From: Sanguinoderma infundibulare
Taxonomy: Eukaryota > Basidiomycota > Agaricomycetes > Polyporales > Polyporaceae
NCBI GenBank assembly: GCA_032821775.1
Contig: JAVLRN010000009.1
Location: 2,666,001-2,730,000, forward strand
Direction of reading: 5' to 3'
Length of the DNA: 64,000 nt
Positions 13,235-56,583 of the stretch are shown piece after piece; position 1 is the stretch's first letter, and every line of letters begins with the position of its first letter. The notes below the pieces were generated by a model. It was not told where the DNA came from, ran no database searches, and saw only the letters and a program-made list of their open reading frames with translations. The position numbers and the translations under genes were made by a program.

Positions 13235-13285
13235 GTACGTCCGAGCCTAACACTCTGGGCGAAGAAGTGTCTTACACGTGCCCAG
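13235..13285 (+). other. 5'-UTR intron of HET gene 2
   Basis: GTACGTC at 13235 and CCCAG ending at 13285 give a 51-nt intron six bases before the ATG at 13292. HET1 has the equivalent intron at 1656-1712. Confidence 0.55.
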
Positions 13286-13291
13286 ATACCA

Positions 13292-15793
13292 ATGCGCTTG
13301 TTGAACACAAGGACTGGGGAGTTCGCATTGTTCGACAATCCGCGGCAAGTTCGTTACGCGATTCTGTCGCACGTCTGGTCGACGGACGGACCCGAGCAAT
13401 CTTACGAAGCGACCCTTCGGATCCTCGCAGATACCCCGTCCGGCATTATCCCCCTCTCTCGATATTCCGACAAGATCCAGCGTTTCTGCGAGGTCGCTCA
13501 GAAGGACGGTTTCGAATGGGGCTGGGCCGACACGTCTTGCATCGACAAGACCAGCTCTTCCGAACTCACCGAAGCCATCAACTCCATGTATGACTGGTAT
13601 CGATACTCTGGGGCCTGCTATGCCTTCCTCCATGACCTCCACGACATTGACACCACAGATCCCACGTTCTGCGACGAATTCGGCAGCAGCAAATGGTTCA
13701 CGCGCATGTGGACGCTGCAAGAACTCCTCGCTCCACACGTCCTTCTATTCCTCTCCAGCACCTGGCGTGTTATAGGTTCGAAATATACCCTCGCTTCTCA
13801 TGTGGAGACCGTGACAGGCATCGACACCTCCATCCTCACCTTCGAGCATCCGTTGGAAGCTGTCAGCGTCGCGCGCAAAATGTCATGGGCCGCGGCGAGG
13901 ACGTCTACTCGTGTGGAGGACGAGGCCTACGCGTTGATGGGAATTTTCGGCGTGACCATCTCTGTGTCATATGGAGAAGGCCGGTACGCATTCATCCGCC
14001 TCCAGGAAGAGATCGTCAAGCATTACCCCGATCAGACCATCTTCGCTTGGGGACACATCCTCCCTCCATTCGAGTTCACATTTGTAGCTCCTGGGGGTCC
14101 CACCGAGATCTCCGTGAGCGACCTGGTGCGTCGGCCTCCTTCGTTGACCGAGTATTTCCTGGCGTCCGGACCCCGCGAGTTCAAAGAATCGTCGACATTC
14201 ACCCATCTTCCCCGGGGAACGTTTGCAGAGTTGCTCGGGCTACCCTCGGAGACGACTTATCAGGAGTTCAGGGCGACTTCTTACGGCATGCACGCATACC
14301 TACCTCTCCTCACCGTCAATCGCCGCGATCACCACTTTAATCTTCCGACACACCTCGCTCTCCTTGCCTGCGAAGACCAAGATGGTCGCTTGCTGGCCCT
14401 CTTGCTTCGCCCACAGCCCGACACAACTGGTCGCGATTTCTTCGTGGGAGCCGTTGTCGGCCACACGCACACATTCATGCACTCCGATACCCCACTGTGG
14501 CAGTCTCACTACTATCGTGTTACCTACCTCTACCGGGAGGAGGTTATTTCCCTTCGGGCCTATATCGAGATGGTAGATCTCTACATTCCCCACCGACCTC
14601 CTATCACTGCCCAGAAGCTAGAGCTGGAGGAAACCACGCATTCCGCTCTGCGGGACTCGCGAGAGTTTTTTGAGGTTCGCCTCTCGGGCTGGTCTCGGAC
14701 GCTCTTAACACAGTACGGGTATACGGTCTCGCCAGCGCAAGACACTAATATCGTTCGCCACGATTGTCGCCTTGTTCTCACCCCATCCGCATCCACGACA
14801 TGTGCAATCGTAATCTCCAATTGCGACGAGCATATCACCATCCGCGTCGGACGTTGCGGCTGCAGGGTCGCCGAGCAGCACCATTTGCTTGCCGTCATGG
14901 TGTCCGCGCGAGGTCGATCCAACTTTCTCGAGACGGAGTTTCAGAGGCCTGAGCACTACGACAAGGGCCACCCGGCACACATCCAATCGTGGGACTTCAG
15001 CGGCGGCTTCGCTTGGAAGGTGATAAACCTGGAGTCAGATTTTCGACCACGCATCACCCTACGCCTCACATTCAGCCACGACACCCAAAACTCTGCCGAC
15101 GTCCCGCGCACAAAAGCGTACCGACTGGGCGCCGAGATCTTGGACCCTCTTCCCTCCGAACCGGTGCCACTCTCGATCTCTCCTGTGTCCATAGAACCTG
15201 CGGTCGCGAGGCAGCTGCGCACATATTCTCAAGTTGCAGCCTCGCCGCCCATCTCGCACGCAGCAATGGCTCTAGTGAATCCGACACCACGGACAACTGT
15301 CAGACCGAGCTGGATTTCGCCACAGGTGTCTCAGCCGGGCAACAGGGCATCGATGTACACCCCGTCGCAGTCGTCGGGTATACCCCAGCCCATATCTCGT
15401 CGCGAGTCATCGCATCTTGTGCCGGTGGGTCAATCCCATTCGCGGAGGAGCAACGCGACAGACCCCGGCACAAGGCGACCGTCCTCCTCTGTGTTGTCTC
15501 CACCCGGGCTGCAATCCGTGCAGAGCGCTCCGGCTGCCTATCATTCGTACGGGTCGCACCGTCCGCCTGGCCAGTACGGCGGCACTTCAAACGGCGCTCA
15601 AGCATCGCGCCCGGCGCGTCCCGTCTTCCGCCAGCCGACCCTGTCGAACGGCGGCTCTCTGAACGGTGCCGCCCTTTCCGCGAGCTCCTCGCGCGCACCC
15701 AGTACGCGGCCGACGTCCGTGAGCGAGTTCGGAGACCGAACGGAGCGCGGAGCCGGTCCCGCGGCGACCCGTCAGAGCCATGGGCTCACATAG
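13292..15793 (+). pseudogene. HET-domain protein 2, 3' coding end cut off by the KDZ element
   Basis: One open frame of 833 residues, a clear paralogue of HET1: YAILSHVW near 22, GWADTSCIDK near 75, WTLQELLAP near 140, and YGEGRYAFIRLQEEI near 230, followed by the same conserved extension and a Ser/Pro-rich tail. The current stop at 15791-15793 comes from transposon sequence. The last native codons are CAT GGG CT (15779-15786), an exact 8-bp copy of 34961-34968. From that second copy the same frame runs on for about 53 residues of similar low-complexity tail to a stop at 35131, so the undisturbed protein would be about 885 residues. The HET domain itself is untouched and may still work. Role in non-self recognition is inferred from the family. 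Confidence 0.85.
15779..15786. repeat. left target-site duplication of the KDZ element (CATGGGCT)
   Basis: Eight bases identical to 34961-34968. Both copies sit at similar distances outside the recognisable inverted repeats, and both fall in the same codon phase of HET2. Eight bases is the duplication length I recall for Zisupton-type elements. Confidence 0.85.
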
Positions 15794-15890
15794 TTACACC
15801 ACTATATATAGGACTTACCAGTTACCCGGCGGTAACATAACCCTGGGGTTGCTAGGGAATCGGGCCTGGCCGGAATACCGCGTATCATAG
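15787..15890 (+). repeat. left terminal inverted repeat of the KDZ element
   Basis: Read inward, TTACC-AG-TTACCCGG at 15815-15829, then GTAACATA, TTGCTAGG and ATCATAG near 15884-15890, matches the reverse complement of 34862-34934 at about 70% by eye over 76 bases. The outermost 28 bases match more weakly. Confidence 0.8.
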
Positions 15891-16162
15891 GGTTAGGCAG
15901 GCCGGCCGGTCGCGTGCCCCAGTTAACCACAGATTGTCATGCTCATGTATCCTGACTGTCCAATTGTTGTAAATACATGCCCTCTATAGCGGTATTCACA
16001 GAAATGTACAACAAGTTCGAATTTACGCGGTCTAGGTGTACTGGGTGAAGTCACCGGCCGGAAAGCATCTACAGGGCAGAAGTATCTCGGCCGGTGGGTA
16101 AGGCTTATTACAGCTGATCCTCGGCCGGTGTAGTGAAGCAATTCCTTTCAGTTTCCGGCCGA
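15868..16162. repeat. left subterminal array of GGCCGG motifs
   Basis: Six sites with core GGCCGG or CCGGCC occur within about 300 bases (near 15868, 15896-15909, 16053, 16087, 16121 and 16155). The right end has a matching cluster. Clustered short motifs just inside the ends suggest transposase-binding sites, which is an inference. Confidence 0.6.
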
Positions 16163-16306
16163 CTACTAAGCCTTGGTACCAAGTATTGTGAGTACCTTGC
16201 ATTATGAGCACTGGCACACCCCCCAATCTCTTCCCCAACTGACAATATCATCGAATTTCAATATGCAATGGCGAGATACAATTACAACGAAACATAATGC
16301 CCAAAA

Positions 16307-17840
16307 TCACTCCTGTAGACTCTCCCATACTGTATCCACTGCCGTGACTCGCCGGGCCAGTGAATCTTGGTATGCTCGCCAATATTGTGGACCGCTGGTG
16401 AAAGCGGCGCCGTGCAACTGGCGAGCGATCAATTCAGCCTCCGTCAGCCCTTCTATAGTAGCTGCAAGTATTTCTCGATCAGCACGCATGCGGGATAAGC
16501 GAGAATGTACCCCAGCTTGGGGGTCATGCGTCACCATGGCAGGCTCCTTAGCCTCTTCGCTTGGGGGTCCCAGGGACATGTTACCCTGGCCTGTAGATTT
16601 GATAGCGGGCACAGGGCGAGCTGCCGGATCAAATGGGCGAGTGGCAAAGAGACCGTGCATGTTGATCGGATCGTTCATCACTTCGGCAGGCCCCCTAGCC
16701 TCTTTGCTTTGGGATCTCCGGGATGTGTCGGTCTGAGACGGCGATTGAATGGGGGACATTGGAGGAGCTGCTGATTCGAATCCACGATTGGTGAACAGAC
16801 CGTAGATCATCTCCGGAAACACCGACTCTGCCAGCAGCCCTATTCAACACAATTGCAATTAAATGTCAATTGGCCAAGTAGATCCAAAGTCCACTCACTC
16901 GTGATTGTGATTTGGGATTCTTGGACGACAAGCGCACCGTCTGTCTGGTCATCTGACCACATCAGCTGGTCCTCGCTGAGCTCTCCCATTATCGGCAGGT
17001 CGAACGTAGCATCAACGGGCGAAGGGGACGACGGTGGCTCGTCCTCGCTGAGCTCTCCCGTTATCGGCAGGTCGAACGTAGCATCCACGGGGTAAGGGGA
17101 CGACGGCGGCTCGTCCTCGCTGAGCTCGCCGGTCATCGGCAGGTCGAACGTAGCATCGACAGGGGAAGAGGATGCCGGCAGCTCATCCTCGCTGAGCTCG
17201 CCGGTCATCAGCAGGGCAACGTCCATGCCGACAGTGGAAGGGGACGACGGCAGCTCGTCCCCGCTATGGGTGCCCGTCATCGGCAGGTCGATTTCGCTGC
17301 CGCCAGTGGAAGGGGATAATGGAAAGGGCACCACCGGCTCTCCGGAGAGTGGTGAAGATGGATCAAATGACAATGAGGACTGCGACGGTGGTGCCGATGT
17401 GGGTGAGATGTCTCGTCGGCAGTCCAGAAATCCTGTCGTTGGATCGTGTTCTTGCGGCGGAAGCTGCTTGCTACGTTCCGGAGATGCTTCACCAATTATG
17501 CCGGCCAAAGATGGAGGTGTTTGAGGTGGAGTCGGAGACCTGATACGAACTTGTTTCAATCCTGTATTAATTTCCAGTCGCATGAGTACATTTGATTTCG
17601 CAAATTAAAACCGTTAGCGCACCTTCGCTTGGGGCACGGGAGATGCTGCGGTTCTGCAAGACGGGTGCCGGAAATGTTTGTGATTGAGCTACCTGTTCAA
17701 TATGACCTATCCGAAAGGGCTCAATGTAAATGTTTTACTTCAATATGGGCAAATTGACGATCGTTACGCACCTGCCGTAGGGTTTTTTGAGGTCCCCTGC
17801 CTGGACTCTCTGCCCCTAGCCCCCCCTCGCCGTGATGATC
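16307..17840 (-). CDS. KDZ-element cargo protein with 24-residue tandem repeats; 5' end unresolved
   Basis: Minus-strand exons 17840-17772, 17692-17623, 17561-16899 and 16839-16307 join in phase (444 residues plus stop); at least one further 5' exon must exist, possibly near 17.9 kb. The centre has five 72-bp units (16975-17334) encoding an acidic repeat of the type DLPITGELSEDEPPSS. The C-terminal 80 residues look helical (MRADREILAATIEGL). I know no family for it. It is the outermost gene at the left end of the element and diverges from the Cys-cluster gene. Three of the four introns are supported by good donor and acceptor sites and matching phases. Confidence 0.6.
16975..17334 (-). repeat. 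five tandem 72-bp coding repeats
   Basis: Units begin at 16975, 17047, 17119, 17191 and 17263, each starting GCTGAGCTC or a variant of it (the last GCTATGGGTG). Units 1-3 are most alike. Each encodes 24 residues in frame in the minus-strand gene, so copy number can change without breaking the frame. Confidence 0.85.
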
Positions 17841-18077
17841 CTGTAAATAGTTTCAGCAACTGATAGACATTGGCAGCTCTCGATATACATTCCTTTCTTT
17901 GGTGCCATATGCCTCCGGGACCTGCGAGAGTTGTGATGAAGGTACCGGAACAGAATCGATGGGCGCTAGTGTGCCACAACCTTTCCACTCGCGTTTTGCC
18001 GCTGATCTGATCGCGATCAACTGCCTTCATCCTCTGGCAGCTTTCACTTTTTTCGTATCAACGAGCTCACTATCACA

Positions 18078-21000
18078 ATGGCTGAAGCAGACGCAACAAC
18101 GAACAAACAGCTGCCGCCCCCGAACAAACAACAGATCCAAACCATGCGCGAATATGCAAGCCGCCTCGAATATGCCTTCCGGTGCCGTCCCCCTGTCAAC
18201 CACCGCAAACGGCGTTCTTGGCATGTCCATTTCCTGTCGGACTTGCTGCCTTCCTCCAGGCTCTCGCAGTCGCAGATTTTCCGCGTATTCCACCGTTCGC
18301 TGCTGGATGTATTTGGGCCAACAATCTTCGGCAGCGTGCAGGAGAGACAACGTTCGATCCGGAAACGATTACGTTCGCTGGCCCTGGGCATAAGGCGTAC
18401 AAGAAGGGAGTACTCGGCCGCCTTAAATGGGAGCCCGCCGGCGAGGAGGGCGATCTGTACAGGACCATTCCCGAGGATCAGCTGTATAACGTTTGGTGGG
18501 ATCAGCATCGACGCGGTACGTAGCGGTCAGACTGCATTGATCCTACTCTCGCTAATTTCTATGCTACATTTAGTGCTGAATGAGCCGCATCTGTCGCTCC
18601 CGATTAAAGCTGTGGAGAATGCGGAACGCTCCCGCCTGGCTGCCGCAGAAACGCAGAATACAAAAACATCCCGCCATGCACGACCGGCCACCAGCGGGAC
18701 GATAGGGAAACAGGGTACGGGTCATGGCTTCGGCACTGCAGTGATTCACTACTTACATTCTATTTCAGACACAATTGGCAGTGGTGCCGCCGACGACGAC
18801 GAGATGGCCGTCGATGGCGGTGATCACGACACCAGCACCTCGAAACCGACATCGGCACGTCGTGTTGACGCATCGACGGCCGTCCTCGATTGGGACACTT
18901 CCGGCATCACCGCTAGCGGGCGCATGTTGCGCTCGTCATCTCGCCAGATGGCCGCAGAACCGGACTCAGATGGGGAGAGCGAAATCGATGTGGATGACGA
19001 GCCGGAGGCCGTCGGTACCTCGAAGAAGAAGTCGGAACATCGCGGCTGCCAGCCCGCAAAGGCTGTGAATCGGAACCCGCCAACGGACAGCTCTGCCGGG
19101 CCTCGCTTGCGGTCCGTCTCTCGATCCAGAGGTGCCGGTACCTCTACTCCACGCTCCACCGCTACCGTGCGTCCATCATCCACGAAGCCGCGCCCGAGAC
19201 CTGCCGGAAAGGCTCAGTCCAGTGCCGGCACCTCCAGCAAGCCTTCCGGAAAGGTAGCGAAGACCCCAAATGAGCTCACGGAGGAGAATTCCGCAGGTGC
19301 CATCGTGCCGCGATCGGGGCAGCGAAGCAAGGGTCTTCGGACCTTGTACGATATTGCGCCGGAGCAAATTGAATTCCGATGGGTACCGCACGTACGTGTA
19401 TTTGTCTTCTACCATGTGTTTTTGACTGATATATTATCAGCCGCGTCCATGCGAGCGGTGCCGGGGAAGGGACGAGCCGTGTCTTGTTATGCTGTTGATG
19501 TCTTCCGCTTGCAAGAGATGCCTATCCGCAAAGCACGGCTGTTCGCTCGCGTTCAACGTCAAGATCGAGGTTCCTCTCGCGATTTATCTTGGGTTTGCCG
19601 TCTGGCGCATGCGTTCCTCTCCTGACCTCTATGAAACTCCAAATTTCTCCCCTACGAAGCTCCCGAAAACGTTTCCTGCCCAGGAAACATACGAGTGGTT
19701 TTCGAAGCAGTGGCGTGCGATTCCTCGGACGAAAGAGGCAAAAGCCAGTGCTCTTCGTGGAGCCACTCGACCCGAGGCTGCCGGTGATGCTCATGATGAT
19801 GCTGAACAGTCTGCTGATGAGCCGGGACGTGGTCGCGGTAGTCGGGCAAGGAGGGGTTCAGTCGCTCGGGCATCTCATTCTCTGTCACAGGCACAATCAC
19901 GCGATTCGACTACTCTTCCTGGCTCCTCTCGTGTTTCTGCAGAGCCGCCTCCGGCTTCTCCAACAACAGTATCCCGCCGCACATCGCCATCGTCGGCAGG
20001 TCGCATGTCGGTCGACCGGGAGGATGCAGACGACGAGCTCCGACTTGCGGCAGATTCCGGGACGACTGGGACATCGCGTACGTCTCGTGCAGCTCTTCGA
20101 GGAGCGGCGCAGACCTCAAACTCGCGTCCCGGATGGTCGAGAAGATTGCGTGCATCCGTGCCAATCGTGGTACTCCCGACCAAGGTGGACGAGGCAGCAT
20201 TTTCTACAACGCTTCAGCGTGCCCCTCCTGCTCTCCCACTCAGGCACCGGAGCTCTGGACCTGCCACTCGGACCGAGTGGACTGTCGGTAGCATCAAAGG
20301 TGCGATTTGATTGCACATATATCCGTTGGCAGCTTGCTGATCTTGCGCTGCACAGGATCATGGAAGGATCTGCCACGGGTGATGAAGGACATGTATCGTG
20401 GACTGTATCGAGTGGCCGACCCGCCACATGCAGACGGAACCACAAATGCGGCACCGATCGTGCCTCGCATCGATCGCGATGGTTTCGAGATCCTGGACAG
20501 CCTTCGAATCCATCCAGCCGACCTGCCGGACAGGTCGGATGCGACTGATTTCCAGGCGTTCCGATTCACGGATCCCCTCGCGCAGATGATCGAGGCGACA
20601 AAAGCTAAATTCGATGAAATTGTCTCACTGGGTACCGCTCTCACGCGCAATGCCGTCATGTTGCGACGAGAGGCCAGCATTGTTACCAACACTCGGAACG
20701 AGATTCACAGCACTGCCCTTGCATCGGAAGACGGCTGGGACACTTATCATGGCTTGGTTCGATACAGCGACCTTCTCGGTGACCATCTTGTCAATGCCCT
20801 GGAGTCCATTGCGGCACTTCGCGACATCCTTGCTCGTTTCTCGGCAGCATTCTCGAGTATCCCGCCAGTTCCGTTGAACTGGATCGCGATGCGGGACATG
20901 CTGCAGCTCGTCCAGGACCTTCGAACCCTATACGCAACAGCATTGGAGCGCATGCATATGTTTGAGGAAGACTTCCGTCCTGTCCGGGAGCGGTTACGCC

Positions 21001-21764
21001 GTGTGCAGGTCCAGGTGGACCGCAACGAGGACAAGTTGGCAACGTTTGCGAACATGGCCGCCTCCACATGCGAGCCGATGGTGCGCAATCTTGGCCAGCA
21101 TCTTGCCGGCAGCGTCGCGCTGCTCGACAGCCGTGTGCGGCAGCTCGAGGGAGTGGAGACAGAGGTGCCGGATGCCTCGCGCATCGGAGAGGAGGCGGAG
21201 GCGGAGGTCGTGCGGCAGCTCGAACGAGTGGAGAGCGAGGTGCCGGAAGCTTTTCGCACAGCCGAGGAGGCAGAGGCAGAGGTCGCAGAGCTCGCGATGG
21301 AGGACGTGCCGGTTGCTCAAGGTAGAGAGGCTGAGGTTCCTGGACTGCGGGACGCAACGGTTGGTGAACTTTTCAGCATGGTCAAAGACTTGTCAGAACG
21401 TGTCAACACTTTGGAGCGTGGACTTCCCCAGCGTAACGAGGACGACATGAAGCTCGCTGTCTCGACATACCTCACAGAACGCGGTCTCTCAGACGACCTC
21501 CTGCGCGGACTCGTGGTGGCTCTGACCACTGGTACTGGCGATGCCCCCACAGGCGGCAGCATCAGCGTTGGGCCCCAGTCCTTCAATATCCAGGTGATCG
21601 CACGCCGTGGAGGAGAGCGTGAGGATGACGATGGTGGCGGATCATCATCGCAAGCAGCTCCTCCCGCTGGTGAGCAGCCGCCAGATCTCGGCATAGCTGC
21701 CTCTCCTTCTTCACCCAGACCTGTTGCTAGAGGAACGCGAGCTCGAGCTGCCGGAGGAAAGTAG
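18078..21764 (+). CDS. KDZ-element cargo protein: Cys-cluster plus coiled-coil, unknown function
   Basis: Clear exons are about 18335-18515, 18574-18714, 18769-19391, 19441-20299 and 20356-21764, all phase-compatible. A first exon from the ATG at 18078 is likely, but its junction with exon 2 is not resolved. Exon 2 has an AGPGHKAYKKGV ... LKWEP segment that I associate with proteins repeated in agaricomycete genomes. Across the 19391/19441 junction lies a cysteine cluster, CERCRGRDEPC then CKRCLSAKHGC (CX2CX6C twice), likely zinc-binding and perhaps DNA-binding. The last 470 residues are largely helical with Glu/Arg-rich heptad-like stretches near 21000-21420, suggesting a coiled coil. It ends 165 bases from the convergent HMG-like gene. 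No catalytic motif seen. Confidence 0.65.
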
Positions 21765-21929
21765 AGGATGCATAAAACGAAAGCGCTGTGTACAATGTAC
21801 GTTACATATGGAGTGGTCATGAATGTCTCTGAAATCAATGCCTTAGCGAATTTCTACATGTACATATCTGAACGAGATGCTGAATACGAGGAAACGTGGT
21901 TGGAAAATTAACGGAGGGGGACGAGAGTT

Positions 21930-24905
21930 CTACGTAGCCGTTTTCTTCTTCCGCGTCGAGCGCCGCCTGGTGGCACCTCCTGCGGCTGCTGAAGTGCTCT
22001 CGGCAGCCGGCGGAGGTGCCGCTACCTGTTTTCCCTTCCCCTTCAACACTGGCGAATCGCGCGCAACATCTGCCGAATGCGTAGCCGACCCCAAGGCGTC
22101 AGAACAAGCCTGCAACACGATCGCCCGATGTCCAACCACCAGGTTCGAGTTCGCCATGTAGTCCGGCAGGCGAGTCGTCTGCGTGTTGGATTTCTGAGCC
22201 TCTGCGAGAAGCGACAAATCACGCAGCACGATGCCCAGGACGAGGCAGTAGCATTGTGTGTCTGCCGGTCCAGCGGCGGCCTCAACGCCTCTCTTGATCC
22301 AGTTCAAGAGGGTCTCGACGGTCTTCGCAGACGCCTGCACGGTAGCCGGCACATGTGCGCCCTTGAACGCCCAGGTTCCCCAGAGCACGGGAGCTCTCGC
22401 GGGAATACCACAGAGCTGCTGGAGCTGAGATGTATGTCAGTGAGACTGTGTACCATGCAGCGATACCAACCGTACCTTGTCACCCATCCGCATGATCATA
22501 CCTTGATAGTCCTGTTCATCGGACAGCCCAACAAGAAATTGGTGGCGCGCATACGCATCGTAGCCTATGGCCGTTGGTGTGAGCAGTGGAAGGGTTTGCG
22601 GCTGTTCCGGACATGTGTTGCCTCTTGCGTCCATGGTCGCAGCGTCGAAGCTGTCACTTTGAGCCTCTGGGGCGTTGAATGGTTCGGGATTGGCTGCACG
22701 ACCTGCATAACCAGCCACAGAGTCGGTCTCAGCGGAAGCCGACACAGCGGGAGCTTGAACGCGCTGTGGATCGGATGAGGGAACGGATGGATGAACGGGA
22801 GAGGTACGGTTTCCGAGAGAGCCGACATCAGCAGCGGTTGCGGTGCCGATTGTAGGGAGTGTGCTCACCAGTGATCTGAGATGATCGGGAGCAGGAGCTG
22901 AAATCCGAGAGACAGTGGGGGCACGAGCAATTGGTACCAGTTGCTCGACAGGGAGAGAGGCAGGTAGGATGTCCCCGACGCTCTCACCATCGCTCACCAT
23001 ATCGTCTGCACCCTCCAGCAACCAATCTTCCACCTCGTCATCGGACACCTCCGGCTCGTCTGTGGCATCCGGAACAAATGAAGGGTCACCGTCGTCGTCA
23101 CTTTCTTCGGCATTCTCGGTCGCGGCAGCATCCACATCAACTTCGGAAGCGAGCCACGGCCGGGGTCCGCTGTTGTCCCATCCGGAGGCCTTCATCTGCC
23201 GACGCGGCCGTGATGGTCCGGGCGTTGGAGGGGGTGCCGGAGAAGAGCTCGCTCTCTCTGCCTGAAGCGCAGCCCGGACCTTTTCGATATCCATGGAGAG
23301 GGCACGCTGGACTCGTGATCCGACATCCGGCACGGTTGGCTGAGATGGCACAGGGCTGCCGGGAGCGTTCGACGGGCTTCCGGGAGTGTTTGATCGAGTG
23401 TTGTCGCCGGCGGCAGGGGGACCGGTCTCGAAGTCGGGAACACGAACCGCTTTTTTCGTGCGCCGAGTTTCCGAAGCGGCTTCAAAGCTGCCGGCATACA
23501 CGGCAGGGATGTAGATGCGATGGGTGCGGGGGCCGGACTCGTAGTGACTGAAGCGGAAGCGGCGGGGAGGGGTGTCCAGGTCAAAACGATCGGGAGCTTC
23601 CATTCGGATGACATGGTTGAAGAACGCGAGAAGCTCCGGCTCGTTCAGTTTGCTTGGTTCTTGAAAGCTGAACCCTTCCGGCAGCATACCAGGCTCGAAG
23701 AAGGACACAGGATGCTGCCCCAACGACTGCCATGGCGCTGAGCGCACCTCCCACCCAGTCGCGTGACCTGCATTGTGTCGGTGAGACAATACATGGCGGG
23801 GAAGGGCATGTCGAGCACGTACTGTAGTGTTGCTTGAAGTATTCCCGGAATATGTCCTGCCGACGGCTGTTCAGAACGCCGTTGCCGTTCTCCTCGTTCA
23901 CCAGGATAGGAGTGCCGTCTGCATATAACGCGAACTGAAAGGGGGCTGCACGAACGCGCTTGATTCCTTTGACGAACTCGAGCGTATCGGGCTCAGCAAG
24001 GTCGGGACGGAGTGCTGCTTGAAAGAACGTCCATGCCTGCCGGCGAAAGTCTTTGTCCCATTCCGGCATGTTCCGAAACAGCGGCGAACTGCTGTCAGAC
24101 TGATTCCAGAGCTGGGACGTGTCGTAGCTATCAGAATCCGTATGTCAGTTTGTATTGCAAGCTGCCGGGACATCGATAGACTTACACGGCAGCACGCATC
24201 TTGCCATTCGTATCCTCGAACATGCCGTAGATGAAGATCGGCATGTTGCACTGTTCTAAAAAGAGGCTTGCGACGGCACGCATCCACGATGGTGCCCTCC
24301 TCTCAGCCATCCTGGTAAATGTACCGGGAGGGTCAGGCTGGCGGCACGCATGGGCAACTGTGAACGTACATTGGCTTCAGATCCTCGTCTGGACCCTGCT
24401 GACTCCAAAGCTCGGCCAACCTGTAATAGACCAACTGATCCTCTGCTGAGAGCTGAAGCCACAGGTTTCGGCAGGTCGCGTTCCAGGCGACAATGTATGC
24501 GCGATCGTCGGGATCACCGCTCGATTGTTCCTCGCCCAGTGTCTGTCGAATGAGGTCTGCGTTCTTCATGCCGAAGACGCGCTGAGGATGAAAGGATTGG
24601 TTGATGTGGAGTGGAAGGCGAACGCGCTTGCGAGTGTCGGCGTTGTTTTGGAACCAATTTCACACCTTCTGCTCTGCGGAATCAGCAATTTGTGAGCGTA
24701 CTCCAGGAAAAAATGGACATACGGCAACAAAGAGGTCGACAATGTAGACGTTGGTGGAGTCTAGATTGCGGCTCTCGATGATGACCTTGGCACACTCCTC
24801 GCGAAGAGCTTCCTTCCCGGCCGCTGCTGTGTTGCAATAGTCGACGAGGCGCGAGTTGAGATACGTCTCATCCGCATTGGACAGATCGCTAGGGCGCGGA
24901 GGCAT
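21930..24905 (-). CDS. KDZ-associated HMG-like protein, possibly interrupted by one stop
   Basis: Minus-strand exons 24905-24370, 24311-24186, 24127-23823, 23767-22476 and 22424-21930 join in phase to 917 residues. Residues near 130-180 (AYIVAWNATCRNLWLQLSAE ... YYRLAELWSQQGP) have the helical, Trp-rich pattern of the divergent HMG domain reported for KDZ elements. The middle is acidic and Ser/Pro-rich; the C-terminus is a basic TRRRSTRKKK tail. An in-frame TGA at 24662-24660 precedes NWFQNNADTRKR. It is either a nonsense mutation or is removed by an 84-nt intron (24665-24582, GTGTGA to CAG), which also keeps frame. It diverges from the TET/JBP gene across about 480 bases. Confidence 0.65.
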
Positions 24906-25383
24906 TGGCAAAAGTTACAGCTGGATTAGGAGGTCAGAGAGAATACTAGCCGGAAGACAACATAATCAATATGGAATGGACGTACAGACGTGCCACTGAA
25001 TAACGGCTCGTAGGATACTGTGGAGGGTGCGTGCCGCCTGTCTTTGAGTCAAATAGCGGAGGTCAGAGCGGTTGCGCTGGGTGCCGACACAGGGGGAGAC
25101 AAGCGAGACATACGGTGGTGGCAGAGAAATGAAGCTGGGTGTAAGGGAATGGCGGGAAAGGTGCTCTGCCGGTCTAGCTTTCGTCGGATCGAGAGGGTAG
25201 GCTAATAAATGTCGCGCTGTTCCGTGCAACTAAGTAACTGTATTTGGTAAGTGGATAATGCCGGCCGGGTGCACAGCTTTCTTAAGCGATCAATCAAATC
25301 ATGTTTTCGGCTATTGGGATCCTCTGAATATCCAACTTCGCCCCAAGTGCGCATTTTCGCAGCTGTTTGCACGGTCTCCTGTC
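24906..25383. promoter_or_regulatory. shared divergent promoter of the HMG-like and TET/JBP genes
   Basis: These 478 bases separate the two head-to-head starts. A GGCCGG word at 25262 matches the subterminal motif of the element. An in-frame ATG at 25258 would add 42 residues to the TET/JBP protein, so the true start may lie inside this stretch. Confidence 0.45.
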
Positions 25384-27027
25384 ATGGACAATGTACTCCA
25401 CACCCCATCTGCCCAATTCCAACGCCGCGCAGCGACTGCACAGTTTATAGTCGACCTCGAACAGTATTTCACGAAGCACGGTGATAACATAACGCCCCAC
25501 CAGCAGCTCATTTCGCAATGGCCCTTGCCCCCTGATCACCTGGATCGAGTTGCGGTGGACGACTGCCGAACCGTCGCCTTCACGCTGTCCAAAGCCCGCT
25601 CCAATCAATGTATGTATCTGATTCATTCCAATAGCACTGTTCACACTGATTTCTTCCAGATTCCGTGAATTGGGATGCAACGGCGTATGCCCATGAGGTC
25701 TCCCAAAAGGTCATTCCTGACCTGGAGGTGGAGAATTGTCTGATGCAGAAGTATGAACCGCTCATCGGCATCGAGGAGTTCCATGCCCGATGCGACTGGA
25801 ACCTTCCGTTGGTCGTCGACCCAGCCGTCTTTACAGATAAGAATGGTCGAGTTCTTGCCTGGTCGCTCCCGAACGTTCTCTCCGAGAATCGGCAGGTATG
25901 TATTACGTTGCGGCAGCTGCACCGGGGGTGCTGATCATCGGAAACAGCAAAAGATATTAAAGACGACGCGGATCCTTGAGGCTCAGCTGACAATCAAGAC
26001 GGCGGAAGCCAACCAGCCGATCACGAAAGGATGGCGCACGGCGGACACCTTTTTCTCAAAAGGGGCCGAATGGGACTCGGGGACGGTTCTACTCTATCCA
26101 GCGGGGTTTCAGCAAGGGCACACGGTACGACCGGCAGCCGAAATTCATTTCCGGCACCTACTGATCTCCACGACAGGGTCAACGCTTTGATCCGGCACCT
26201 AGCATGGACGTGCGGTCAGCCCGAGCTTCCGACTGGATGCTGGACTTTGAGGAGTCTGGCGGTATCCTGGACAGGATCCTCGCGGTAGCTCATCCAGAAC
26301 TATACGAGGCCAGCCAAGACCTGATGGAGCGGTGTGTCATGAGACATGCATCTTGCGCTTCCCTCATGGCCACCTGGCCCACGACTTTCACATCTGTGCA
26401 GATCATTGTGAATCGCTCGACTCTCCGCCACCGCGACACCAGTGCGATGCCAGGTTGGCTCGACCTGCTGCTCACGCTTGGCAGCTACGGTGAGACAGGT
26501 ATCTTTGAGATTCGTAATCTCGGCATCTCGCTCCCATACGGTTCCGGCTCCGTGGTTTTGCCAACCTCGAGGCTTCTCATTCACGGCGTTCCGAATGTGC
26601 CGAAGGATCGCATTGCATACGCGTTGTACATGAACAAGGCCGTGTACGAGTGGTTCAAGGTGCCGATGGTCGGCACAACGCAGCTAGTCACATCCGGTGA
26701 GTCCTTCATTGGCTGAGCCGGTCCACATGATTCACCTCCTGTTCAGAGAACGCAGACGTTGTGGATGACGTGCTGAGCGGAGCTGGACCACACGCGGCAG
26801 ATCAGCAGGACCTCCCGGCACCCATCGATAAGGGAAAGGGCAGGGAAATCGAACCGCCGGCTCCCGTGGCACCGGCAGCCGACGGGAGAGGGGATGGAGG
26901 TGCCGGTGCGGAACGCGATGAGCCGATGGACGAGGAGTCTGATCTGACGGAGGAAGAGGAGTCAGATCTGATGGAGGAAGAGGAGGATGCGGATGGCGAA
27001 ACAGATGGCAATGACATGGAGGAGTAG
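25384..27027 (+). CDS. TET/JBP-family 2-oxoglutarate/Fe(II) dioxygenase, intact
   Basis: Exons 25384-25609, 25660-25895, 25948-26124, 26177-26696 and 26747-27027 join in phase to 479 residues with no internal stop. The C-terminal half has the double-stranded beta-helix signature of fungal TET/JBP enzymes: NRSTLRHRDT with the iron-binding H298-R-D300, WLDLLLTLG, then LLIHGVP with H349, and R358 in KDRIAYALYM as the likely 2-oxoglutarate anchor. The family oxidises methylpyrimidines in DNA. The N-terminal 210 residues are unassigned; the last 90 are acidic (EEEESDLMEEEED). Linkage to KDZ transposases is known for basidiomycetes, and the transposase starts only 70 bases downstream. Activity is predicted from residues, not shown. 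Alternative start: ATG at 25258. Confidence 0.85.
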
Positions 27028-29408
27028 AGTACCAACACGGCATCAAACATTTGTCACTCCCCATCCCCCTGCGCGCGCCACTGTCTATGATACTGTGATG
27101 GCTAGACGACGATTCTTAAATGCACCTACTGGCTTTGACAAGATCACGGTGGGTACTCGAAAGACAAAACGGGGAGTTCAGATTGTTACAAAGAAATCAA
27201 AAGTACATTTCACCGCGCCCGAAGCCGTGCACGAGCCGTCGACATCGACTTCCCGCCGTACACCGCAAGAGGCTGCCGAAGCCCCGCCCCCGGCAGCTAT
27301 CGATGACTACAGCGAAATAACACTGGAATCGCACATACGTCCTCAGCGCAAAGGGAAGGTAAGGAAATACTTTTATGAAATAATACGCTAAGCATTGACA
27401 TCACCGGGACGTCCAGTCGCAAAACGATTTCCAGCGTGAGTACCTCATCGTCCAAAATGAATACATCGACCGGCAGCTCATGCTCGAGGCTCAGCCGCCC
27501 GGGGGAGTTGGAACATGTGGTCATCAAGCCCTCTGGAGGTGTCTGACATGCCATGCGACACCGACCTTCTGCAGCAGCTGCTGCCGTGATGCTCACCAGT
27601 CTCATCCCCTTCACCGCGTCGAATTTTGGGGCGGCACATTTTATAGACCAGCATGGCTACGGCAGCTCGGACTCCAAGTACACTGTGGCCACCGCGGTGC
27701 GCGGTGCCCCGCGTTAGGTGCATACGACACTGCCGAAGAGCAGCAGCTGCGAGTTCCTTCCATTGTCGATGATCTGCCATCCCTAGATCCCGCCAGGCAA
27801 CCACCCACACTGTTTCCCTTCCTCCCCCTTGCCAAATCCATAGCTACCGATGATGAAGATGGGAATGAAGACGATGAGCTGCCGTACCTGGAGGAGGAGC
27901 CTGACTCTGAGATGGAAGATGAAGACAGCGACTTCTACCTGGGTTCTGGTGACACTCTGTTGCCTGAGGTGTCTGACCTACCGTGGGTCGGTGAAGGCCC
28001 TCGCCGTCCTGCGCCGAGCACCTCGCCTGCTGCCTCTGCATTCTACAGCAATGACCAGATGATCGTCGTTGTTGACACGGACGGAGTTCATGAGTTGCCG
28101 TTCACCTTCTGTGCTTGCACAGCTGCCGAACGCCAGGACTTTCAGCTACTCGATCTCGGCTACTATCCCGCCTCTATCACTCAGCCAAAGACAGTCTTCA
28201 CGACTCGCGTTCTCGACGATTTCTTGCTCGCAAACAAGGAATGCAAGACTTCGGCACGAAACTACTACAACAAGCTTCGTCGGACAACCAATGCTGCCTT
28301 TCCCCATATGGTGCCGGTGTGTTGCCCAGACCCTCGTTGCATATAATGGATTGAAACGCTGACAGACAGTGCTAGGATCGATACAAGGAACTGCTCCATG
28401 TATCTCGTCAATGGCGCAACCAGCAGATGCGGAAGCTGGCGGGTTTTGCTCACCGGCAGCAGGTGATTGGGCCCGGCGATTTGGCAGTGCGTTGTCCCGC
28501 ATGTCCCCAGCCAGAGGTCAACCTACCTGAGTCATGGCGAGATGATCCTGAACAGTACGTCACCTACTCCTCCTCTCGGCTGATTGTGATCCTCATTTGA
28601 TTAGATGGAAGTACACCCGATCCGTCGTTCTCGATGGCAATTTCAGCGCGCAACATCGGCACATGCGAAATCCTGAGGACGACGTTTCCTTTGCTGATGG
28701 ACACGCCTTCATGGTAACTGATGCACCGTACAAGCAACACCTCAAAACCGCAACTGAATACCAAGAGGTGCGTCACGTAGTCGCATCGGCTGCCTCGCCT
28801 AGACGTTAAGTGAGATGCACTGTCTTGGGCAACTCAGAAGTCAACATGCAATGATCACCATGCAGTGCTGAATGTAACCGTCGACCGCGCAAAGCTGGAA
28901 GCTACCGGGATTGGCGCGGCAGCGTGTTCTAGGCATGGCTTTTTCGCCCCACACGCATCCGTCGACTTCCAACAGGGCGAGCGGTATGCATCTATGAATT
29001 CAGGAATCGTTCCGACAGCCACACTAACCTGCCGATAGCCAGCGGAACATGGACTACGTACTTAACTGGGTCCTCGCATATCTCAACGGCCTCACCCGCA
29101 TTCTCGTCCTCTATGACATTATGTGCCAATATTTCATTCATTTGTACGCCAGGTTTGAGAAGAGCCCGTCGCTTCACATGCCCGAGGGCCTCACATTCCT
29201 GCATGGTATCGGCCAGTTTCACGTCCATGGGCACATCCCGCAATGCTTCCCTCGCTTCTCGTGCAACTTTGTCGTTGGAGCCGGTGTCCAGGATGGTGAG
29301 ATATTGGAGACACTATGGAACAAGGTCAATGCGATCGCAGATAGCACCAGGGGAATGTCGGCAGCACACCGTCGGGAGGTCATTGACGACCACATGAACG
29401 ACTCCAAT

Positions 29409-29411
29409 TGA
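29409..29411 (+). other. premature TGA 1 in the transposase
   Basis: The frame is open with KDZ-like sequence on both sides, and the codon lies between AAT and ATG AAG, where the family usually has Trp. TGG to TGA is one transition. There is no donor before it that would keep the conserved DDHMNDSN. Confidence 0.7.
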
Positions 29412-30424
29412 ATGAAGGTCACCAGAATTAGTAAGCTACGTATGACCCCATAATTTTCGGCAGCTTACTGACCATCGTATCAGCCGCACTACTCACTCGG
29501 AAGTGGAAAAGGGCATGCCAACAATGGAAGCCTGCAGTATCCGCATTCGAGAGCCTTGCGGCAGCTACCGATGCCACCAAATGTACCGAGTGGAAGGCTG
29601 AGGCTGATGCCGCAGATGCTGAACGATTGCGGGACCCATCAGCGATGGACATCTATGCTGTCTCATCAAATCCTTGTGAGTAGTTCGAGGTACACTGTGA
29701 ACGAGAAATGAATTTTTGTCAATAGTGCCGACGAGGAAGGAGGTGCAGGTCATGCTTGCACAGGAAGAGCTCACCGATGCTGGGGCGTCCGATGAGACTC
29801 TTGGAGCTGCGGACTGGATTGCACATGGGCTGATGATTGAGGAAACAAAGTAGGTTTCTGAAGCGTGCCGAAAACGCACACTAATGACAGTGTTTCAGAC
29901 TCGCGATTGCTCACACCGCTCGTTGCACCAAGGACAGTGCCGGCACCCAGGCAAGGCTGTCACTCGTGCAAAAACGGCAGCGCCTCGCTTCCACTATTAG
30001 CGCATTCCACAAGACGGGACGGAAGCATCTGCCGGGCCACCTACCGGGCGATGGCGGAGTCCTCGGTGCGGATCTCACGATGTTCGGTGACGAATGGGAT
30101 ATGCATAACGTTGTCGGTGAGGCCATCCGAGAGCTGCCAGCAGATCGTCCTGAAACCCATCCAATTGGTCTGCCGTCCACGTTCGGAATCGACTTCCTTG
30201 CTCAGAACGATATGCTGGACCTGGCAAAGAAGGAGCGGCAGCTCCGTGAAGGTCAGCTCAACGACGCCCTACAGGGAATACGCACTGGAATCGGGTACAA
30301 ATCTCTACTGTACTGCGCTAAGGTCCGTAACGCATCATCATACCAGGCGAAATTGCGCAGCTTCGACGATGTCCACGTTGCTGACGAGGGAGTCCGGAAG
30401 CACGTCCGGGTCTATCAGCAAGCT

Positions 30425-30427
30425 TGA
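30425..30427 (+). other. premature TGA 2 in the transposase
   Basis: The same frame continues as AAMGWL after the stop. CGA to TGA is a CpG transition, the kind expected from deamination of 5-methylcytosine. Confidence 0.7.
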
Positions 30428-31262
30428 GCAGCGATGGGATGGCTATTCTATCTTGACGACCCTGAGGATGCGACAGCATTCGAACGCTTCCGAACAACAT
30501 ACAAAGACATCAAGAAGGAAGATCTGAAGACGACAACCGCGGTCATGGAATCCTTTACACCTGGGCTTCGCAACGAACATTCGGCCTGGTTCTGGAACAT
30601 CTCAGACACTGAGTCTGGAGAGCAGAGTACGTGGATGCGAGACTGTGAGTCGATCGCGGTACCGATATACCATTACAAAGCACTTACCAAATCCACAGAC
30701 CATCGCATGCTGTGGCTTCGGGCATATGCTCGTAAGTCCCGATGGGATGAAGAGGTTGTCCTGGTGCCGTTTGAGATGGACTGCACGGTTCGCACATTCG
30801 AACGGAAGGCTGCCGATTGGGAGAAATGGAGCACAACAGCTAAAACGCCGGGTCACTTGGCGTATGCTCACCGGCAGGTCTCAATGTGGCGCAGTCTCAA
30901 AGACCATGCGGTCGGAGTCTTTTCTAGTGCATGGAGTAAATACGTACCGTAGAAAGCAGTATGTTAGACCGTCTTCGGAAGCATTGACTGGAATATTGAG
31001 TGCATGAATAAGGTGCCGCAGATGGCCATAAATCATGGATATGACGAGAAATGCTGCCTGCAATGAAATCCTGGCACTTACAATCGTAATAGCGGAATTA
31101 GCATCATTTTGGGCAGCCTTGACTGAGACAGAGTGCGGCAGCGAGGTGCTATGGTCGGTGCCTCATTGTTGAATGCCATGTGATGCTTGGCCCGGGCCGG
31201 GACGGCTACAATACCATTATGTACCTTCGGCAGCGAAGCTTGCTATCCCAAAAGCCGCCATC

Positions 31263-32034
31263 ATGATACCGGCACCTCAGAATCCCGCTGGTGCCCCGTA
31301 CCTCAACGTACGCGGTACGGCACGTCTTGAAGTGCTCCTCATTACACGCCGAATCTCCTCTACGCTGCAAGCAATGCCACAACCTCCAAATGACCTCACG
31401 ATACGTCGATGGAACCACGGAATCGGTCGGGAGATGGTACGCACTAAATCTAAGAAACACCTCGGTTTGGTGTTGATATACACTCTAATGGTTCCGGATT
31501 TATTTGTAGTGGACGGCGATGTGCGCGATCGGTCTCACAGCCGCAATGGAGATGACACTGGCAGACTACAATACCGTCGAGCGTGTGTGGTGCAAACCAC
31601 TCGCGTATCTCCTTCGGGCCTCTGTTTGGGAGAACCGTCGGCTTCACATCGATGTCGGCAACATCAACTTTGCAATGTATCAATGCCTCGCAACATTCAA
31701 CGAGCAGGTTTTCCTCGGTATGGAGGACTCATGGATCTATCCGCAGTGGTGGACGTGGGCAGAAGATGGGCCTGGTCAGGGACACCGCACTCCCGGGTGG
31801 TGGATTAACCCTGCTTCAACTGTCATACGTCGACACGATCCCATTTCAGAAGATACCAGTGCTGACGCGCAACAGGGCGCCCCGATTCCTATTTTTGAGT
31901 CTGACAGGGATGACCTCCGCGCGCTCGCTGGTGAGGTGTATTTGCATATTGGTCGTATCGTTGAGGAGAAGGAGGAGGAACGGCACAGACTCGATGTTCG
32001 CATCATTGAGGAGGAGATGGAGCTTAGTCGGTAG
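31263..32034 (+). CDS. small KDZ-element cargo protein, unknown function
   Basis: Exons 31263-31436 and 31510-32034 join in phase across a 73-nt GTACGC...GTAG intron to 232 residues. The product is Trp/Tyr-rich in the middle (WIYPQWWTWAEDG) and ends in a charged helix rich in Glu and Arg (RIVEEKEEERHRLD). No domain recognised, no signal peptide or membrane segment. It lies 310 bases after the transposase on the same strand, so it is probably part of the element's gene set. An upstream exon cannot be excluded. Confidence 0.6.
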
Positions 32035-32112
32035 GCGGATGCACTTGCTGTTTCCGTGCGCCAAGATTTCGATGTACAACAAGCACCCGAACCAGTAGAA
32101 TGTATCACCGCG

Positions 32113-32308
32113 TTATTGTTCAGCCCTCAGACGTTAGCGCTATAAAACAGTTGTTGGTGCCGAAGCACTGACCACGTGCTGGAAAGGCTGCCGTCGAGTT
32201 GATCAAAATGTAGACCCATCTTACTGTTCAGCCATCACACTTGAGTGCTATAAAACGGTTGTTGGTGCCGAACCACTGACCACCGGCTGCGACGGCTGCC
32301 GCGGAGTG
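32113..32308. repeat. direct repeat of about 88 bp, two copies, each with GCTATAAAAC
   Basis: Copies at 32113-32199 and 32221-32308 share the TTGTTCAG or CTGTTCAG start, then GCTATAAAAC, GTTGTTGGTGCCGAA and CACTGACCAC. Each copy holds a TATA-box-like TATAAAA. Confidence 0.75.
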
Positions 32309-32945
32309 AATCTATGGATATTCAAGGACCGGCAGTAGAACACTCTGGTCGAAATCGTGTCCGCCATCGGCGGTCAACGAATGAATAAAACGGCGATACT
32401 ACACAGTAATTATCATCGTCAAAGCGGCCAACGAATGGCCGTGGCCCACGGCATAGACCCTGAAGTGTAATACTTGAGTCAATTAATTCTCCCGGCACTG
32501 CTCTCGCGGTACTGCTCCTGCAGCAGCTCCGTCCCCTGTAGCTCCGGTCCACCCGAGGTCTTTGCGGCAGCCCGCTAGCGGCAGCTAAGGCACCTTCCGA
32601 GGAAGTCGAGCGCGTCATGCCCGATACGTAAATTATGTACCGGTAATGCTAGAATGAGAATAGTAATGAGCGTAGTCCCAAAACAGAGAAGAAACCTACT
32701 TACATCTTCTGTGGCCACCGTGGTAGGATGGGACCGTGTGACTGCAATTAGACCTCAGCTTGCAAGACTAACCTTGCATAGTCTCACAAGCTGACGACTA
32801 ATCCACTGCGGCAAGGTAGGCCATACCACTGCGGCAAGGTAGGCCACATCGCGCGGGCGTGCCCCAGCAGCACCGCGACTACTGCGGCAATGGAGGAAGC
32901 CTCCCGGGCCTACCCATACATGGTCCTGCTTGAGCATAGGCTAAA

Positions 32946-33491
32946 TTCACATTGACTAGAAGGTTGACTCACGCAGTACACTTCAGGGTCTACGCCCTAA
33001 GCCTTGTATGATCCGCGGGGGTTGAGCTAAAGTCCGAAAACGAGAAGAGGGCTAGAGGCCCTTACACTCGGGACAGCCTCCCGTGGGCTAGGTGAGTAGC
33101 CGTGTTCGGACGGGGACGATGGCTGCGGTGAGCAGCCGGAGGATGAGGAAGGCCGTGGACGCTGCCAAGGAAGGGAGCTGCCGGGGTGAGACCCGAGCTA
33201 GACCACAGCTGCCTGGGAGAAGGCTGCCGCAAGAGCACTACCGCGAGAGCGGTGCCTGGAGAATCTAAGACATTTGAATCAGCATTGGCTCAGTTCACAT
33301 TGACTAGAAGGTTGACTTACATTGTACACTTCCGGTTCTACGCCCTAAGCCTAGTACGACCCGCGGGGGTTTGCGTGGACGTGCGAAGGCGAGAATAGAG
33401 CAAGAGAGAATTTACACTGAGGATTGCCTCAGATGGGATAGGCGAATAGCCGTGTTCGGCAGGCAACGATGGGCTGCGGTGAGCAGCCAGA
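32946..33491. repeat. direct repeat of about 195 bp, two copies
   Basis: Copies at 32946-33140 and 33294-33491 share TTCACATTGACTAGAAGGTTGAC, TACGCCCTAAGCC, CGCGGGGGTT, AGCCGTGTTCGG and GGCTGCGGTGAGCAGCC in the same order. Confidence 0.8.
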
Positions 33492-33579
33492 GTACTACCT
33501 TAGCTGCCGCACACTTTTTATACTATTCTGGCATGGATAGTACCATGATGAGATTGGAGAGAGAGATTGGGGGTGGTGG

Positions 33580-33900
33580 ACAATGGCTGCCGCTCGAGAG
33601 CTACCGTCGAGATCTGCGGTAGACTACAGCTACCAGGAGAGAGCTGCCGCAAGAGTGCTGCTGCGAGAGAAATATTGTCTAAAGCTACCGTCGAGACCTG
33701 CAGTAGACTGAAGCTACGGGGGAAGAGCTGCCGCAAGAGTGCTGCCGATCAAGCCTAGCTCCCGTTGAGAGCTACCGTCGAGACCTGCGGTAGACTGCAG
33801 CTACCGGGGAAGAGCTGCTGAGAGCAACGCACAGTAGACGGCAGCTACCTGAAGAGCTTCCGCAATAGTACTACTGGGAGAGTGCTGCATGGAGAGAGCT
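33580..33900. repeat. imperfect tandem repeats with GAGCTACCGTCGAGA core
   Basis: At least three copies (near 33597, 33680 and 33768) of a unit of about 85 bp containing GCTACCGTCGAGA, CTGCGGTAGAC and GAGCTGCCGCAAGAG, with more decayed copies after them. A separate GAGATTGGAGAGAGAGATTGGGG word occurs at about 33550 and 34020. Confidence 0.7.
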
Positions 33901-34548
33901 ACCGCGAGAGCACTGCCAGGAGAGAGATGCTGTGAGTGACAGATTGGATAACTAACAGCCGGCAGCTAACGCAGCTGCCACAGACTTGATATGCTGCTGT
34001 GCGACCTGTGATGCGATGGTGAGATTGGAGAGAGAGATTGGGGTCAGTGGAAAGCGACGTCACAGCTGCCATAAAGTCAGGCTTTCAATGTCCAATGAAC
34101 GGCAGCCGGGATGGCTGCCGTGGACCATACTTTGGTTTCGGGAGTTTGCGGTGGCTCAGGCCGCTGCTATGGAACGGTTGTTGGCGCAGAAATGAATCCG
34201 CAGGTCACGGGCGGGACCTGAGGATGTTGAGACGCGTGTGCATGACTCCAGTACTGACATCTATGCTGCGTCCAGGTGATCAGTGATGTCAACAAGATAG
34301 AAATGTGCCAAATACAAAGTGCTCCCACTGCAAACCTTCCGGAAAGAGTCAATACCCCACACGCGCAATCTACGTCAACCACTGTACCCAAGGTAGGGTA
34401 TTGATAAGATCGATTTGGGGAATCGCAGGTGGTGTTGTGTATGAGATATGTGACATACAATAAATAATACACATGTATTAATATGTTGTGGACAAACCGA
34501 AGCGTGTGGGGGTTCGTGGATGGTCATACAATTGAGACTTAACCATGT

Positions 34549-34884
34549 CGCCGGCCGGCTGGCAAGAGCTTGGAGGGCAGCCACCGGGCCGGCTAGCAAG
34601 CGCTGGTATAATGTCTCACGGCCGGCTGGCAAACACTGTGATGTCATTTAACTGTCTACAGAGCTTGAAAACAAGAGCAACAATAGTATACCTCTGTTTT
34701 ACATATGTAACAGAGTTTTTAGAATGAGGAATCGCACACAGGACCACTGGGGAGGTATCTGCGTTCATAACCGGCCGGTCAGCATAGCCACCTATAGACG
34801 CCGACCGGCCGGGGCGCTAAATGCAGCCACATCGGCGCGCCCGGCCCGGTAGCAAAGGTGGCTATGATGTGGGTCCCGGCCGGC
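34549..34884. repeat. right subterminal array of GGCCGG motifs
   Basis: Sites near 34549, 34586, 34620, 34770, 34804 and 34875, with a variant near 34841, mirror the left-end cluster. Several share the flanks GGCTGGCAA or GGCTAGCAA. Confidence 0.6.
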
Positions 34885-34960
34885 GCCTGCTGCCTAGCAA
34901 AGCCGGGGATATGTTACAACCGGGTAATAGGTAATATAAGCAATTGTGATGGAATGGTCT
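34862..34960 (-). repeat. right terminal inverted repeat of the KDZ element
   Basis: Reverse complement of the left end over its recognisable 76 bases (34862-34934), with a weaker match out to 34960, where the target-site duplication begins. Confidence 0.8.
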
Positions 34961-35131
34961 CATGGGCTTCGAACGACTGCAGTCACCACTCCACGTCAGA
35001 CTGCCGTTCCGGGCTATAGTCGCAGTCAGCAGCGCCCCGCGCCACATGCGACGAAACCATTCCTTGTCAATGGTGGCCAGCGAGGACGGAATGGGAGTGG
35101 TCGATTCCCAGTCGTGAACGAGGACACTTGA
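34961..35131 (+). pseudogene. detached C-terminal end of HET gene 2
   Basis: It starts with the second CATGGGCT copy. Read in the HET2 frame it gives HGL, then 53 residues of Ser/Arg/Gln/Gly-rich tail ending in FPVVNEDT and a stop at 35129-35131. The composition matches the rest of the HET2 tail. It lies 133 bases from the convergent WD40 gene. Confidence 0.8.
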
Positions 35132-35264
35132 CCTAACCGATGTATTGGTTTCGGCCTACGTAGCATATTGTCTCAGCCCTTGAACAAGTAGTATTGTATC
35201 GACAGTCGACATAATCCAGACATCATGTATTCAAAGAAATATGTATCCTTGTAAAGTACCGACT

Positions 35265-38134: not shown

Positions 38135-38164
38135 CTATAAAATCGGAATTCTCTCTCTCTCTCT
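38135..38164. repeat. CT microsatellite at the LINE 3' junction
   Basis: A short (CT)n run directly before the right duplication; a simple-sequence tail in place of poly-A. Confidence 0.6.
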
Positions 38165-38178
38165 CGCCTTGTGACCGT
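38165..38178. repeat. right target-site duplication of the LINE
   Basis: CGCCTTGTGACCGT, a perfect copy of 35781-35794. Confidence 0.85.

Positions 38179-54483: not shown

Positions 54484-56583
<2,100 letters not shown>

Follow-up and report, generated by a model that had tools for sequence, protein, structure and literature searches.

A TET/JBP-carrying KDZ transposon in the coding end of a HET-domain gene of Sanguinoderma infundibulare, with its empty allele

The 64,000-nucleotide stretch analyzed here (the window; C9:2666001-2730000, in the terminal part of contig C9) of the 48.9-Mb genome assembly of the basidiomycete Sanguinoderma infundibulare carries a KDZ-superfamily transposon with a TET/JBP gene, inserted in the coding end of a HET-domain gene that we call HET2. 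The element spans positions 15787..34961 of the plus strand (19,175 bp; 5'-CACATAG...GGTCTC-3'), shares its termini with five other copies in the genome, and is absent from the HET2 allele on contig C18 of the same assembly. Elements of this kind are known; this single assembly shows a full-length 19-kb copy with exact ends, an empty allele, and a readable effect on the host gene. These observations very probably reflect the cut-and-paste transposition of a TET/JBP KDZ element, most probably a Kyakuja, into HET2 at codon 832, on one of two haplotypes, through a 7-bp staggered cut.

Interruption of HET2 and its empty allele

The original prediction, made from the letters of the window, had placed a TET/JBP-carrying KDZ transposon of about 19 kb in the coding end of HET2, and both the Pfam domains of the element and the empty allele on C18 bear this out. 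It had proposed that an empty site, with HET2 running continuously through one CATGGGCT, be sought in other strains or sister species; such a site is present in this very assembly. A search with the HET2 protein returned a 98% identical copy on C18, whose open frame measures 916 residues from stop to stop against 863 in the window. This allele (L068) aligns with window positions 13122-15786 at 96.7% identity and then continues on positions 34961-35772 at 92.5%, with three gap openings in each piece; the two pieces overlap by exactly 8 bp, and CATGGGCT is present once on C18. The C18 HET2 has 886 residues and reads in frame through the site into the displaced tail, its last 53 residues being identical to those of the window at 51 positions. 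The frame that had been seen to leave the right-hand copy of CATGGGCT and to stay open for 53 residues is, on C18, the end of the gene.

In the window, the C-terminally truncated HET2 reads open through 833 codons to a stop (13292..15793, plus strand); its residues 1-832 correspond to those of the 886-residue intact allele and are followed by a threonine and the stop. The frame enters the left CATGGGCT as CAT-GGG-CTC, in the phase originally read, and goes on as ACA-TAG. With the insertion in codon 832, HET2 loses 53 residues and gains one, the element supplying only this threonine and the third base of the leucine codon. The proposal that the C-terminus had been swapped for element sequence holds insofar as the tail is lost; the outcome is a near-pure truncation. 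The displaced 3' end (34969..35131, plus strand) contains what remains of the 53 codons lost from HET2, together with its original stop, as judged from its open frame, the C18 allele, and related tails in the five closest homologs. The HET domain (PF06985, residues 22-115; 43.2 bits against a cut-off of 22.5) is uninterrupted, in line with the original prediction. This domain is shared with the HET-domain genes of fungal incompatibility; a role of HET2 in incompatibility is putative, making it a candidate recognition-type gene, and the insertion may affect allorecognition.

Over 884 codons, 56 synonymous and 19 nonsynonymous changes separate the filled from the empty allele (dN/dS of 0.11), which indicates that HET2 is under purifying selection. 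The displaced tail is also found in two further HET2 copies: in L085 it lies in the same frame with one internal stop, and in L086 it lies 190 bases further on and in another frame. Simple polyadenylation-like patterns were absent from the 610 bases after the stop of the filled allele and from the 469 bases after that of the empty one. A second HET gene of the window (1713-4850, 1045 residues) is 48% identical to HET2.

The four other copies of the element with 97-99% identity could have misled the assembler into joining a transposon to HET2. Such a misassembly is extremely improbable: the element is bounded by a perfect 7-bp duplication of a site that the empty allele has once, the pattern expected of transposition, and the five other copies have different surroundings.

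Ends, gene content, and affinity of the element

CATGGGCT occurs at 15779-15786 and 34961-34968, as first reported, and the pair had been taken for an 8-bp target duplication. The pair alone proves nothing, because the window holds a third occurrence at 29824-29831 and 1.98 are expected by chance. The other members of the family are more informative. Near-identical copies lie at C17:128356, C2:3993545, C2:203870, and C7:586397 (identified by end searches, 97-99% identity at the ends), and a sixth, diverged copy lies on C8; the comparison covers the ends of the first four and the whole length of the C8 copy. All six copies start with CACATAG and finish with GGAATGGTCT. The base after GGAATGGTCT is a C in six of six, and the corresponding left-hand base is C, C, C, A, G, and A. 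The 7-bp duplication is exact in five of the six copies and, in the diverged C8 copy, agrees at 6 of its 7 bases; a duplication of 8 bp was rejected, since exact 8-mers flank only three of the six.

Paralogous empty sites carry the left-hand base. It is G in five out of five sites examined for the C7 copy (eight among the matches listed, the best 40 of 221 candidates having been scored) and A in the single paralog examined for C2:203870, while the other C2 site, with C on both flanks, is undecided (4 of 32 such matches examined). The right-hand C therefore belongs to the element, and it follows that the duplication is of 7 bp and that the element ends at 34961, not at 34960. The two copies of the duplication, ATGGGCT, lie at 15780..15786 and 34962..34968. 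The C7 transposon sits inside one member of a multicopy family clustered at C7:580-853 kb, and eight other members match the empty site at 90-95% (among the matches listed).

Matched inverted repeats had been expected just inside the duplication. Local alignment of the two ends does reveal such repeats, at 15815..15890 and 34862..34934, with a score of 47, where 2000 pairs drawn at random from the window reached no more than 29. They are about 75 bp long and imperfect, with mismatches and small gaps, and they are subterminal, the left one starting 28 bp inside the end.

The two domain-bearing genes lie on the plus strand. The TET/JBP oxygenase gene (25234..26713, exons approximate) has its oxygenase domain in the region 26165-26713, with the PF12851 match within 26204-26713 (E value of 3.7e-14). 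We take the HRD and HG motifs of this domain to be its iron ligands; both are retained in an alignment with CcTet (PDB 7vpn). The KDZ transposase gene (27399..30949, exons approximate), delimited by conserved frames and Pfam domains, encodes a CxC2 cysteine cluster (PF18803, E value of 5.2e-24, within 27480-28343) and the transposase domain (PF18758, E value of 4.4e-28, at 29037-29408). The genome holds at least 29 Tet_JBP matches, at least 22 of them above the cut-off, and at least 87 KDZ matches.

Three further regions are predicted to hold cargo genes, their frames being defined by open-frame conservation with the diverged C8 copy. A gene transcribed towards HET2 (16310..17604, minus strand) has two frames at 56% and 33% protein identity to that copy and no Pfam match at an E value of 0.1. 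One or more fast-evolving genes (18006..21761, plus strand) have three frames at 29-39% identity and no Pfam match at 0.01; at 18086-18520 an overlapping frame reaches 55%, so the frame in use is uncertain. A multi-exon gene or genes (21933..24914, minus strand) show frames at 44-66% identity, with no Pfam match in 22437-23786. Since overlapping frames on both strands match the C8 copy, exon limits and in part the coding frame are uncertain. The C8 copy is itself a mosaic: its right-hand 2.8 kb are 83-88% identical to the window element and the remainder about 65-70%, it has about 10 kb extra, and its segment matching window positions 31257-32034 is inverted.

The transposase domain, the six copies with the same ends, the target duplications, and the empty allele identify the element as a member of the KDZ superfamily. 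TET/JBP genes riding on KDZ transposons are already known and have been described from family consensus sequences (PMC12730594). According to the available text of that study, TET-carrying elements of Polyporales are Kyakuja only, and two TET-carrying Kyakuja families of Laccaria have 7-bp duplications, 5'-CA...TG-3' ends, and no terminal inverted repeats (TIRs) (Kojima 2025, PMC12730594). The window element shares with TET-carrying Kyakuja the combination of a KDZ transposase and TET/JBP in one element, the 7-bp duplication, and the left CA. It differs from the two Laccaria families, as described there, in its right-hand TC and its imperfect subterminal inverted repeats; CA...TG ends without TIRs may or may not be a defining character of the lineage. 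Zisupton, also of the KDZ superfamily, makes 8-bp duplications (PMC12730594), so that the 7 bp found here fit Kyakuja and not Zisupton. Taken by its features, the element probably belongs to the Kyakuja lineage.

Insertion into gene bodies has been shown experimentally for KDZ1, KDZ2, and KDZ3 (PMC12810828), which share with the window element a KDZ transposase with a CxC cluster. As presented in the accessible part of that paper, they differ in their length (9-11 kb), in TIRs of 139-241 bp, in having CxC1 with no mention of TET/JBP, and in their target duplications, which measure 8 bp (in KDZ2 and KDZ3, 4-8 bp) against 7 bp here. In Pleurotus, CxC2 precedes intact KDZ elements, as it does in the window element (PMC7641404, available text).

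C9 and C18 as probable haplotypes

C18 most likely represents the other haplotype of the telomeric arm of C9, from a dikaryon or a heterozygous strain whose haplotypes were assembled apart. Telomere repeats stand at the end of C9 and at the beginning of C18, and C18 matches C9 in reversed order. Thus, C18:94953-99851 corresponds to window positions 55000-59900 at 99%, C18:93000-95000 to positions 59853-61855 at 99.0%, and C18:450000-452500 to C9:2351182-2353679 at 99%, its sole other match of such strength. Four HET loci have equal order and matching orientation on the two contigs (pairs matched by order and score, with direct alignment of the HET2 pair). The distance from HET2 to the probe at 55 kb of the window is 21.3 kb greater on C9, which approximates the transposon plus an insert of 2.4 kb resembling a long interspersed nuclear element (LINE).

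Subtelomeres duplicate, and C18 could instead be a subtelomeric segmental duplication, making HET2 and its C18 copy paralogs, with an intact copy in the same nucleus. The telomere repeats at which C18 starts and C9 stops would agree with this, as would further HET2 copies of 94% identity at C9:2568874 and C18:167509. The C18:300000 probe, which lacks a full match on C9, also speaks for it: it falls in a repeat array of which only short pieces match C9 (40 of 50 candidates scored). Nevertheless, we judge a duplication quite unlikely, since the 99% matches, both at 93-100 kb and at 450 kb from the end of C18, follow the same reversed order, the HET loci between them keep their order, and no other genomic place reaches 99% for the two probes searched. 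The C18:300000 probe neither supports nor refutes allelism, the two arms being different there.

The array at C18:249620-302500 has a period of about 12.5 kb, and C5 and C23 carry related arrays that repeat about every 18 kb. The LINE-like insertion (about 2.4 kb, 35781-38178) lies in a minus-strand WD40-repeat gene adjoining HET2, is absent from C18, and is bounded by a 14-bp repeat, CGCCTTGTGACCGT. Its open reading frame (35825-37537) gives weak matches to zf-RVT and RNase H, neither of which reaches its Pfam cut-off.

In the sequence of events that we favor, C9 and C18 would come from the two nuclei of one dikaryon. The KDZ transposase of the element's own family would have moved the element, which was presumably inserted at a 7-bp staggered cut in codon 832 of one haplotype, and a truncated HET2 may still be made, with the element supplying its 3' end.

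The lost tail and the question of HET targeting

The closest listed homolog of HET2, a Ganoderma leucocontextum protein, is 68% identical. The lysyl-tRNA synthetase of the genome matches that of the same species at 93%, that of Earliella at 92%, and that of Lentinus at 91% over 64% of the query, other polypores following closely, so that polypores are the nearest named relatives by these proteins. The original prediction had suggested aligning orthologs across the junction; the comparison was made with 120 listed homologs. In a search of those 120 sequences alone, the 53-residue tail was matched by nine at E values up to 1, and by five of these at E values up to 0.007. These five are the closest homologs (P0001-P0005; E values from 1e-6 to 0.007), whose C-termini are related to the lost tail and have a GQQRPARH-like stretch and a PWEVVNED-like ending. 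An AlphaFold2 model of truncated HET2, computed from an alignment of 40 sequences chosen from the homolog list, is mostly confident in its fold as far as residue 619, with a predicted local distance difference test score below 50 at residues 620-811 and 813-833. By this model, the insertion trims a predicted disordered tail with an end motif conserved in close relatives and leaves the predicted folded core untouched. If recognition changes, this would most likely come about because the disordered tail has lost its conserved motif at the C-terminus or because the amount of message is altered, and not through loss of the HET fold.

Several observations weigh against the explanation favored here. 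The junctions between the element and HET2 rest on one assembly. Kyakuja membership is assigned by features, and the right end of the element is TC, where the two Laccaria families described in PMC12730594 have TG. Besides the difference at the C18:300000 probe, the HET loci are spaced differently on C18 and C9. The dN/dS of 0.11 denotes purifying selection, unlike a diversifying recognition locus. Against the original reading of the tail stands that 111 of the 120 homologs, including those ranked sixth to eighth (P0006, the partial P0007, and P0008), lack a tail match at an E value of 1 or better; the rest of them are at most 55% identical, and many are shorter proteins. The tail is therefore a feature of the closest relatives and not of all homologs.

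The loss of the tail could also have been adaptive, altering or silencing the HET specificity and so widening fusion compatibility. The conservation of the tail in the closest homologs would fit this, as would the WD40-repeat neighbor on the same haplotype, which is also interrupted, by the LINE-like insert. A single insertion on one of two haplotypes looks, however, like a new neutral or mildly harmful one, and we consider adaptive truncation quite unlikely.

Two of the six family copies lie inside HET genes: the C9 copy in HET2 and the diverged C8 copy in another. The flanks of the latter encode a different HET protein, aligning with HET2 residues 56-164 (55% identity) on one side and 167-369 (35%) on the other, and a Pfam HET match lies 139 bp from the end of the copy. 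This split gene occupies C8:990606-991196 and C8:1020886-1021222. Such a recurrence could mean that the family targets HET genes through a sequence, chromatin, or tether preference, and two or more of six has a probability of 0.0007-0.003 if HET genes make up 0.7-1.4% of the genome (assuming 150-251 genes of 2.2-2.7 kb; at least 150 PF06985 matches exceed the cut-off, with 150 of 251 candidates scored). The window was, however, chosen by its HET hit; with this hit set aside, the probability of one or more hits among the remaining five copies is 0.03-0.07. The four other copies show no HET2-like frame in their 1.5-kb flanks; their sites are a dispersed repeat, the C7 multicopy family, a stretch with a related C10 copy, and a place that matches nothing else.

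KDZ loci in general are no closer to HET loci than random. Between 55 merged KDZ and 157 merged HET loci, there was no enrichment at 15, 25, 50, or 100 kb; within 25 kb, 8 of the 55 were near a HET locus, where 8.1 would be expected within the same contigs and 6.2 with contigs pooled. The KDZ set comprised the 82 typed matches among 87, each of the five left out lying within 3 kb of a typed one, and the HET set comprised the 150 scored matches and, from the 54 matches of the HET2 search, 10 seemingly not in that list. HET loci are undercounted in this test because 150 of 251 candidates were scored, and the lengths of C1, C11, and C16 were taken as the largest coordinate seen. Since the probability adjusted for the window's own hit is 0.03-0.07 and KDZ loci are not tied to HET loci, we do not claim targeting, which we regard as very unlikely.

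In the literature collection searched, no paper mentioned both Kyakuja and heterokaryon incompatibility. KDZ and heterokaryon incompatibility appear together, as listed domains, in the available text of a Ganoderma genome paper. The titles and abstract openings of papers on transposable elements in relation to HET or incompatibility genes revealed no obvious KDZ case, and the available part of the Marasmius oreades genome paper (PMC8290104) has no mention of HET.

A more speculative and improbable extension is that a TET-carrying KDZ family repeatedly enters HET genes and would give one haplotype a tail-less allele, perhaps under the demethylating influence of the element, beside an intact one. 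This would amount to a recognition-gene allele made by a transposon. The filled and empty HET2 on sister haplotypes would provide a natural experiment on the part that a disordered tail plays in self-recognition, and the same pair of alleles would allow one to ask whether a TET-carrying element changes the methylation of its host gene.

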